DNA of 64,000 nt from Hymenobacter psoromatis (lineage in GTDB: Bacteria; Bacteroidota; Bacteroidia; Cytophagales; Hymenobacteraceae), in the NCBI GenBank assembly GCA_001596155.1, contig CP014771.1, positions 2,666,001 through 2,730,000 on the forward strand. Direction: 5' to 3'. Below, piece after piece: positions 2,550-3,225 of this stretch. The position numbers were made by a program, and so were the translations under genes. The notes below the pieces were generated by a model. The model saw only the letters and a list, made by a program, of their open reading frames with translations, did no database searches and was not told the DNA's origin. Positions within the stretch are counted from its first letter, which is position 1, and every line of letters begins with the position of its first letter.

Positions 2550-2773
2550 AACGCGTAACGGGAAATAGCTGCGAGAAAAAAGTTTTTGTCAAACTCCGTG
2601 CTGTTGGCTGGTTCGCGGCTTCTAGGGGGGGTAGGCGAGCAATTGCCTTGTTAACTACCTGCTAGTTAATGAATTGACCTTATATCAACCATAGCAAGTG
2701 GCCGGCGTCAGAACCAAGCCAGCTGGCGGAAGCAGTACCCACGAAAGAAACGGAGCGAACAGCGCCGAAGGTC

Positions 2774-2914
2774 TTAGCCTTGGCAACAACAGCACATTCG
2801 CATTCGCCCGGCCGCGGAAGCCGGGCCAGCTACAGCCGATTGCAGGAGGATTCCTAAGGTGCGCACCGAAGTGGCAGCCGAGTAGGGAGCAGCGAAGAAA
2901 AATGGGTGTGCCAT
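2774..2914 (-). CDS. Poly-cysteine leader peptide (uORF) of the metY/metX operon
   Basis: A 46-codon ORF between the SAM-I aptamer and the peroxiredoxin gene. It starts MAHPFFFAAPYSAATS and ends GRMRMCCCCQG, so four Cys codons (TGC TGT TGT TGC) come two codons before the stop. A hairpin (GCCAAGG/CCUUcGGC with one bulge) starts right after the Cys codons and spans the stop; another (GCCCGGC/GCCGGGC) lies just before them. This is the arrangement expected of a ribosome-stalling attenuator read out by Cys-tRNA. Poly-Cys uORFs acting as Cys-responsive attenuators are known in mycobacteria. The frame opens further upstream from a GTG inside the riboswitch, but the ATG gives a leader outside the aptamer. 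The sequence is too short for homology, and no U-tract terminator is obvious, so the mechanism is inference. Confidence 0.6.
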   Translation of the reverse strand: MAHPFFFAAPYSAATSVRTLGILLQSAVAGPASAAGRMRMCCCCQG

Positions 2915-2964
2915 GTTGGTACTCGGTTTATAGCCCCCCAGGCTACGCGCGGCAGCTACTGGGG

Positions 2965-3045
2965 TAGGAATTGGCACCTTTCAACGGGTGAAGGTTGCCA
3001 GCGGGTCAGGGAGCCTAATCTCTCGCCGCTTCTGTATAAAACTTA
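2965..3045 (-). promoter_or_regulatory. SAM-I (S-box) riboswitch aptamer, metY/metX operon
   Basis: Read on the minus strand, the aptamer carries the S-box landmarks in order: GAGAGATTAGGCTCCCTGA, then CCGCTGGCAACC, then a short hairpin, then AAGGTGCCAATTCC. GGCAACC and GGTGCCAATTCC are the conserved SAM-I core. The 5' half is of the AGGCUCC type, whereas the metH copy in this window has the GAGGGACCAGGCCC type. A CCCCAG/CTGGGG hairpin follows directly. No U-run follows that hairpin, so the expression platform is unclear. The 420 nt from aptamer to first structural gene is long for an S-box leader and holds the Cys leader peptide. Confidence 0.85.
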
Positions 3046-3091
3046 CTAAAACTGCCCCGCCTGCTGCGGAGGAGTACCGGATTGGTAAGGG

Positions 3092-3122
3092 CAAAGATAG
3101 ATGCCGCGCCTCATTTACCAAA
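3092..3122 (-). promoter_or_regulatory. Bacteroidota-type promoter of the SAM-I/metY leader
   Basis: On the minus strand TTTG is followed after 19 nt by TATCTTTG, an exact match to the -33/-7 pattern used by the primary sigma factor of Bacteroidota. Transcription would begin near 3085, about 40 nt before the riboswitch. Confidence 0.7.
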
Positions 3123-3138
3123 TTTCTCCTAAAAAAAC

Positions 3139-3221
3139 AGGGTGCGGGGCTTGCCCCCGCCCGTCGTTGAGCGAAATTAGGTGAATCGTTCAACGACGGG
3201 CGGGGCCAAGCCCCGCACCCT
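3139..3221. repeat. GCGGGGCTTGCCCC-family inverted repeat, copy 1
   Basis: The arms of about 32 bp begin AGGGTGCGGGGCTTGCCCCC and continue CGCCCGTCGTTGA, with a single mismatch, around a 19-nt AT-rich loop. The same family occurs near 6942 and 11495, and as a half copy near 13853. It sits between the met promoter and the LysM gene terminator. Confidence 0.9.
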
Positions 3222-3225
3222 ACAC

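Follow-up and report, generated by a model that had tools for sequence, protein, structure and literature searches.

The metY leader of Hymenobacter psoromatis carries, within one 5′ untranslated region, a SAM-I (S-box) riboswitch and a short upstream open reading frame (uORF) with a series of cysteine codons at its end. The enzyme MetY uses sulfide to form homocysteine. Both parts of the leader are of known kinds, and both riboswitches and leader-peptide attenuators are textbook devices. Here the leader was analysed in a window of 64,000 nucleotides (C3:2666001-2730000) of the 5.45 Mb genome. Leaders from other genomes were compared via metY and cysH, because the peptide itself is short and variable.

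Organisation of the metY leader

The original prediction placed a promoter, a SAM-I aptamer, a 46-codon frame with four terminal Cys codons between hairpins, and then a redox gene, metY and metX on the minus strand, and all of these elements were recovered (Table 1), although the metX match (292.9 bits) lies below the curated cut-off of 500. The aptamer and the uORF stand behind a single predicted promoter.

Table 1 Features of the metY leader and operon, numbered from the first nucleotide of the window
Feature	Position	Strand	Basis
Predicted promoter, TTTG-N19-TATCTTTG	3122-3092	minus	motif match
SAM-I (S-box) riboswitch aptamer	3042-2925	minus	Rfam RF00162, 65.4 bits, full length
46-codon uORF (leader peptide)	ATG 2914 to stop 2774	minus	open frame, conservation and codon bias
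Run of four Cys codons, TGC TGT TGT TGC	2794-2783	minus	sequence
Hairpin GGCCCGG...CCGGGC, just 5′ of the MRM-Cys codons	2827-2806	minus	predicted fold
Hairpin GCCAAGG...CCTTCGGC, over the last Cys codon, the stop and the next bases	2784-2764	minus	fold
Peroxiredoxin-like protein of the AhpC/TSA family, opening gene of this operon	2549-1866	minus	PF00578, E 1.4e-27
metY, O-acetylhomoserine sulfhydrylase	1808-423	minus	TIGR01326, E 8.7e-203, above curated cut-off
metX, 5′ part, running out of the window	300-1	minus	TIGR01392, E 3.1e-87

The pair of promoter boxes, whose sequence and spacing we take to be the Bacteroidota promoter consensus, occurs three times in the window against 0.27 expected by chance. 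Its strict form was found in 56 of the 163 leaders examined and a relaxed form in 127/163, compared with 0/163 mononucleotide shuffles, and the distance from the predicted promoter to the aptamer core had a median of 112 nt (IQR 109-113). The aptamer aligns to model positions 1-108 with a score well clear of the gathering score of 44.4, which makes it a family member by the covariance model. The uORF begins 178 nt past the end of the predicted -7 box, 10 nt behind the covariance-model end and 13 nt behind TATAA, the 3′ strand of P1. It encodes the peptide MAHPFFFAAPYSAATSVRTLGILLQSAVAGPASAAGRMRMCCCCQG, with the C-terminal tail RMRMCCCCQG directly before the stop. Folding of the whole 491-nt leader barely beat shuffles (z -2.05; 3/100 shuffles equally good).

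Several further features of the genome were noted. A cystathionine gamma-synthase gene (L398) scores above its cut-off elsewhere in the genome, so both routes to homocysteine seem present. The metX frame (L397, 5801-4989, minus strand) has just 270 amino acids, and its match reaches position 278 of the 351 in the MetX model; it is possibly shortened or frameshifted. Between the LysM gene and the promoter lies a long inverted repeat (3137-3224), which resembles several microRNA families below their thresholds and is therefore probably a terminator or repeat element.

Conservation of the uORF in Hymenobacter

Among 101 sampled genomes of the genus, metY was identified in 98 and the DNA upstream of it was read. 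All 98 leaders contain an S-box, 93 by the core motif GGYGCYAA and five by cmscan; cmscan matched each of the 31 genus loci scanned besides the window, giving 32/98 confirmed in this way overall. A filter requiring 15-110 codons with at least three Cys in the last 14 was passed by a Cys-tail uORF in 94 of the 98 leaders. In the remaining four (L073, L145, L147 and L149, judged by eye) a uORF occupies the corresponding position and is in frame, and its Cys tail is reduced: RMRPRRDCCRRR, RMRMCWGCWM and, twice, RMRMCWGCRM. Three leaders that came from a pattern search (L093 and L094 of the genus, and L099) were excluded from these 98 and from the 79 leaders described below; they were retained in the shuffle, folding, codon, promoter, T6, anti-P1, frame and ATG-spacing sets.

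Spread of the uORF across the order

Outside the genus, metY (E up to 1e-150) was detected in 164 genomes of the order sample, and 80 leaders were chosen among those listed to represent many genera, 79 of them usable. A Cys-tail uORF was present in 52 of these 79 chosen leaders and in 9/11 families (f1 11/11, f4 8/9, f14 6/7, f22 5/5, f2 4/4, f9 3/3, f18 3/5, f19 11/21, f5 1/3, f15 0/5, f11 0/6). The ninth f4 leader (L336) encodes a 14-codon uORF with CCCC, below the 15-codon limit, and therefore counts among the 27 order leaders in which no Cys-rich uORF reaches 15 codons. An S-box accompanies the uORF in 51 of the 52 (49 by core motif, with L335 and L362 added by cmscan), a count in which motif-only cases may include a few false ones, because L355 has the motif and no cmscan match. 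The cmscan set covered 62 of the 79 loci and matched 57, leaving L349, L350, L355, L356 and L378 without a match; the one uORF leader of the 52 in which no S-box was counted, L388, lies outside the scanned set. A Marivirga arenosa leader (L217, found by pattern) shows the same order of elements, with an S-box, a uORF ending MRMRMCCCC, 210 nt and then metY.

The aptamer end could be placed in 16 of the Cys-poor leaders, and all 16 have an ATG 7-14 nt behind it that opens a short frame lacking a Cys run. Since the nearby ATG is retained in every case, the S-box/uORF unit does not depend on a Cys run. Two of these frames, in L380 and L396, end RMRMC and RMRMCS. Six S-box metY leaders without a Cys run (L339, L340, L347, L348, L353 and L387) have an ATG at a distance of 12 nt from the aptamer end; the L339 and L340 frames have the ending IFFFYQTKR.KFNP.KIYNF in common.

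Leaders that keep riboswitch and genes without an ATG, frame or Cys run are therefore not the general state of Hymenobacter and its relatives. The expectation that relatives keep the uORF was borne out for the genus and for most order leaders; it needs amending for some clades, in which the S-box is joined by a nearby start and no Cys run. The arrangement is more general than is visible from the window alone.

The Cys run is in frame with a start codon behind the aptamer

It could be argued that the short frame is untranslated and that the TGY codons repeat by chance or serve as an RNA element. With 172 matches in the genome, the sequence TGYTGYTGYTGY is not rare, and no homologue of the peptide was found, either among NCBIfam and Pfam models at E up to 1 or as a candidate in a protein search. 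Against this, the arrangement of the repeat was examined in the 127 leaders with a placeable aptamer end. Dinucleotide-shuffled versions of these leaders passed the Cys-tail filter in only 108/2540 cases (4.3%), and their reverse strands in 3/127. A search for the first (TGY)4+ run after the S-box, made irrespective of frame, located one in 75 of the 127 leaders (46/66 in the genus, 29/61 outside). An ATG lies 5-20 nt behind the aptamer in 73 of these 75, and an open frame leads from that ATG into the run in 73/73, although the leaders are related by descent and such counts do not represent independent events. The spacing from TATAA to the uORF ATG had a median of 11.5 nt (IQR 10-12, n=104).

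Codon substitutions also argue for translation. Among 41 near pairs of leaders, changes at codon position 3 (369) exceeded those at the other two positions (286 and 262), and the synonymous share within the uORF was 0.412 compared with 0.282 expected. This bias was absent from the 120 nt past the stop, where the synonymous share was 0.311 against 0.299 expected (14 pairs). The peptide is under moderate selection (ratio 0.56), and within the genus the Cys codons are mixed (TGC 287, TGT 338). An untranslated frame is thus a very improbable explanation of the repeat.

A second operon with the same arrangement

Two S-boxes of the genus (L014 and L017) precede cysH-like genes, a name read from the sequence by eye, and are followed by a uORF, VVHSNNLRTLASPTLSG.VAACMGMMCCCACCC and stop, once GTG starts are allowed. 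A cysH-like gene is present in 67/101 genus genomes, with no match in the window's own genome. In the best 30 of these 67 by E-value, which were read, the S-box core motif was found at 30/30 loci (20/20 of those checked by cmscan) and a Cys-rich uORF passed the filter at 25/30. The uORF start, mostly GTG, lies 12-13 nt behind TATAA in 22 of these 25. Of the five loci that failed the filter, L414, L417 and L430 contain the same frame with an internal CCC cluster and L409 a longer frame with CCC, while L421 has no start at the uORF position. It would make immediate metabolic sense for sulfate assimilation to be under a Cys sensor.

Most metY and cysH S-boxes lack a nearby terminator platform

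Four S-boxes in the whole H. psoromatis genome score above the cut-off. The second one in the window (30674-30566, minus strand) precedes a metH-like gene and has a T-run within 60 nt behind a hairpin (-8.2 kcal/mol), with no Cys uORF behind it. In the metY leader (L003) there is no T6 within 140 nt, and the terminator platform, which is typical of S-boxes and not required of them, is absent. The comparison set consisted of 31 S-boxes among L001-L034 that belong to neither metY nor cysH. T6 occurs at 39-59 nt in 28 of these 31, preceded in 26 by a hairpin of -11.6 kcal/mol or stronger and in two by a weaker one (L002, -8.2; L004, -4.2 kcal/mol); the three without T6 precede metH-like genes whose start is 66-68 nt away. 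By comparison, T6 within 140 nt was found in 15/96 genus metY tandem leaders and 2/30 cysH leaders. The 28 also show an additional downstream partner for the 3′ strand of P1 (mean z -1.01), whereas no such anti-P1 partner was detected in tandem leaders (z +0.65, -0.08 and +0.51). The 16 metY S-boxes without a Cys run are likewise devoid of a platform (T6 in 1/16; anti-P1 z -0.24), so its absence goes with metY S-boxes generally and not with the Cys run.

Closeness of an ATG by itself proves little, because 23 of the 31 other S-boxes also have one, 5-7 nt behind the covariance-model end (for example L007, L010, L022 and L023). Taken together, the missing platform and the 10-12 nt spacing suggest that the metY and cysH S-boxes act on initiation at the uORF. 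The original prediction described a riboswitch stacked with a uORF; both are indeed present in one leader, and the relationship appears to go beyond stacking, with the uORF start taking the place of the missing terminator platform.

Alternatively, the two elements could be independent sensors in parallel, the S-box acting by long-range structure and the Cys uORF as a separate attenuator, so that their closeness would carry no mechanistic meaning. A Bacteroidota metagenome-assembled genome (L174) encodes an MRMCCCC uORF 100 nt before metY with no S-box by cmscan, and the two modules can therefore separate; other S-boxes occur without a Cys uORF, and some metY S-box leaders are without a Cys run. 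However, the distance between aptamer and start codon holds at 10-12 nt, at cysH also and there with GTG, and the S-box in tandem leaders has neither a nearby terminator nor an anti-P1 partner. We consider such independence unlikely.

From the uORF stop to metY

In genus leaders a hairpin covers the final Cys codons together with the stop (mean z -1.25 for the stretch starting 12 nt before the stop, over a folded set of 48 of the 96 leaders). The stop codon was fully paired in 48 of the 96, compared with a mean of 19.6 and a maximum of 28 in 40 shuffled sets; leader codons thus overlap a stem more often than in shuffles within the genus, and not above chance in other families, where the stop was paired in 15/53 leaders (shuffled mean 10.4, largest 18). 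In the window the hairpins claimed around the Cys codons were predicted on either side, and the stop falls in the loop of the second, so this leader is not among the 48. In the stop-hairpin alignment (A1, covering 74 genus leaders) the TAA and TAG types are offset from each other by one base, and matching of the third base of the stop codon to its partner, being partly built in by folding, was not taken as proof. Past the stop, genus leaders have a C-rich, G-poor stretch (C 0.56 and G 0.08 at +20 to +30). Outside the genus the structure past the stop is stronger than in shuffles (MFE -8.7 vs -6.9). When the ribosome was masked in the folding, the stop hairpin melted and no shared alternative fold emerged further downstream.

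An intrinsic terminator past the uORF was considered as a general mechanism and rejected. A scan for terminator-like structures returned 45/53 leaders outside the genus (30-34 in shuffles) and 30/32 in the genus (26-30), an excess outside the genus that was not matched by U residues behind the strongest hairpins: among the 53 leaders outside the genus, at least six T in 10 nt occurred behind the strongest downstream hairpin in eight and in front of it in eight. Because this U-tract is missing, the leader is not a standard attenuator, and Rho-dependent or translational output is favoured over intrinsic termination, a choice that we make with low confidence.

Poly-Cys frames at other genes

A pattern scan of named genomes, selected for ATGCGAATGTGY, returned at least 118 loci and is by design uninformative on how general the MRM motif is. 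Among the matches listed, short frames of the type MSNKRNMFNFPK.QMHANMRMCCCCCCC and stop lie about 44-58 nt before a PhyH-like gene in many Flavobacterium, and frames preceding PhyH-like genes in Pedobacter end in MRMCCCCA and stop. These PhyH-like loci include L157, L163, L172, L194, L211 and L233, the assignment being Pfam-based for L157; no S-box core was found within 400 nt upstream of the PhyH-associated frames. In Dysgonomonas and Dysgonamonadaceae, frames ending in MRMCCC precede TonB-receptor-like genes (L204 by Pfam; L215, L179, L261 and L264 by eye), which perhaps reflects Cys-regulated uptake across the outer membrane. Two Mucilaginibacter genomes (L162 and L228) carry an MRMCCC frame 165-176 nt before a gene of the AhpC/TSA family, as in the window. 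The PhyH-associated frames are possibly members of a wider class of poly-Cys leaders in Bacteroidota; pattern hits outside the phylum look like chance.

The recurrence of MRM before the Cys codons in many leaders bears on another explanation, namely that the uORF acts through its product, RMRMCCC touching the exit tunnel as an arrest peptide or the Cys thiols binding metal. The DNA is nearly identical among the pattern hits, and a peroxiredoxin-like gene comes next in the window. However, the pattern hits had been selected for MRM, and leaders of the order set, which were not chosen by pattern, often lack it while keeping the Cys run (ICCCCCCCCC, LICLACCCCC and NFYCCCCCCC). In addition, the longest Cys run varies from 1 to 9 across leaders, reaching nine in a row outside the genus, as would suit a counter of codons. 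Arrest or thiol sensing by the peptide is accordingly improbable.

A model for a two-input sulfur gate

On balance, the features of these leaders favour a two-input sulfur gate in which the S-box would govern initiation at the uORF and the supply of Cys-tRNA its elongation. Through the pair, the cell can probably sense its supplies of methionine and cysteine jointly. With SAM bound, the 3′ strand of P1 would abut the ribosome-binding region and uORF translation would be low, while scarcity of SAM would open P1 and allow the uORF to be translated. If Cys-tRNA were short, the ribosome would pause on the Cys run, at or just before the stop, where it would hold the stop-codon hairpin open and cover the C-rich, G-poor stretch behind, and transcription or translation would proceed into the operon. 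If Cys were plentiful, the ribosome would terminate and leave, the hairpin would re-form and the operon would stay low. We infer the response to SAM and to Cys, the sign of each, and a step from uORF to metY that would run through Rho or translation and not an intrinsic terminator. Production of MetY would be tied to a joint shortage of SAM and Cys, in which homocysteine has to come straight from sulfide rather than through transsulfuration of Cys; by requiring both to be low, the gate would draw on sulfide and spare Cys.

More tentatively, the gate may be arranged in series and be ancestral to the order, used at both metY and cysH. The uORF start would then be the expression platform of the riboswitch, with SAM setting ribosome entry and Cys-tRNA the stopping point; the core of the device would be the S-box/uORF pair, to which the Cys run would add a second, exchangeable input. 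This is a possible reading to which we would not yet give even odds.

Relation to known systems

As in other SAM-I riboswitches (RF00162), the aptamer in the window is full length and precedes methionine genes; it differs in having no terminator/antiterminator platform nearby and a uORF start 10-12 nt behind P1. Leaderless poly-Cys short ORFs reportedly serve as Cys-responsive attenuators of mycobacterial operons. In so far as those systems are known to us, both have a short ORF that contains a Cys run and precedes sulfur genes, whereas the uORF described here lies about 180 nt past its predicted promoter, after a riboswitch and in another phylum. Unlike a trp-type attenuator, no U-tract terminator follows the leader peptide in the 53 leaders outside the genus.

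In a T-box, the RNA itself binds the tRNA. For the published systems that follow, likenesses and differences refer to the accessible part of each source. In Bacillota, contiguous T-box and SAM riboswitches join an aminoacylation sensor to a SAM sensor in a single leader (PMC12452182), as proposed here, where the sensor would instead be a translating ribosome; the terms uORF and Bacteroidota are absent from the main text of that source. A Xanthomonas SAM-I riboswitch in a met-operon leader likewise integrates a second, tRNA-borne amino-acid signal by sensing uncharged initiator tRNA, with tRNA-fMet binding the platform directly, and the term uORF is absent from the main text (PMC7270179). The uORFC-8-2 motif before cysS in Rhodobacterales has tandem Cys codons inside a stem and was read as ribosome-mediated attenuation; it differs in its two Cys codons, an intrinsic terminator with a U run and a restriction to cysS, and no riboswitch is mentioned in the accessible text (PMC8632094). 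The SAM-II riboswitch of Sinorhizobium metA also adjoins an early start codon, although this AUG1, in frame with AUG2, is unused in its native context and the accessible text does not refer to cysteine (PMC9373788). Transcriptome papers on F. psychrophilum and B. theta describe leader-peptide-like uORFs in general terms in their accessible parts. No description of an S-box with a poly-Cys uORF in tandem was found in searches of open-licence literature, in line with the original prediction, which knew of no such combination in Bacteroidota.

The presence of this arrangement in 9/11 families sampled, and again at cysH, a sulfate-assimilation gene, points to an established type of regulation rather than an oddity of a single genome. 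The leader would amount to a natural RNA device with two inputs, and it offers a testable answer to how the choice is made between homocysteine from sulfide, through MetY, and homocysteine from cysteine, through transsulfuration.
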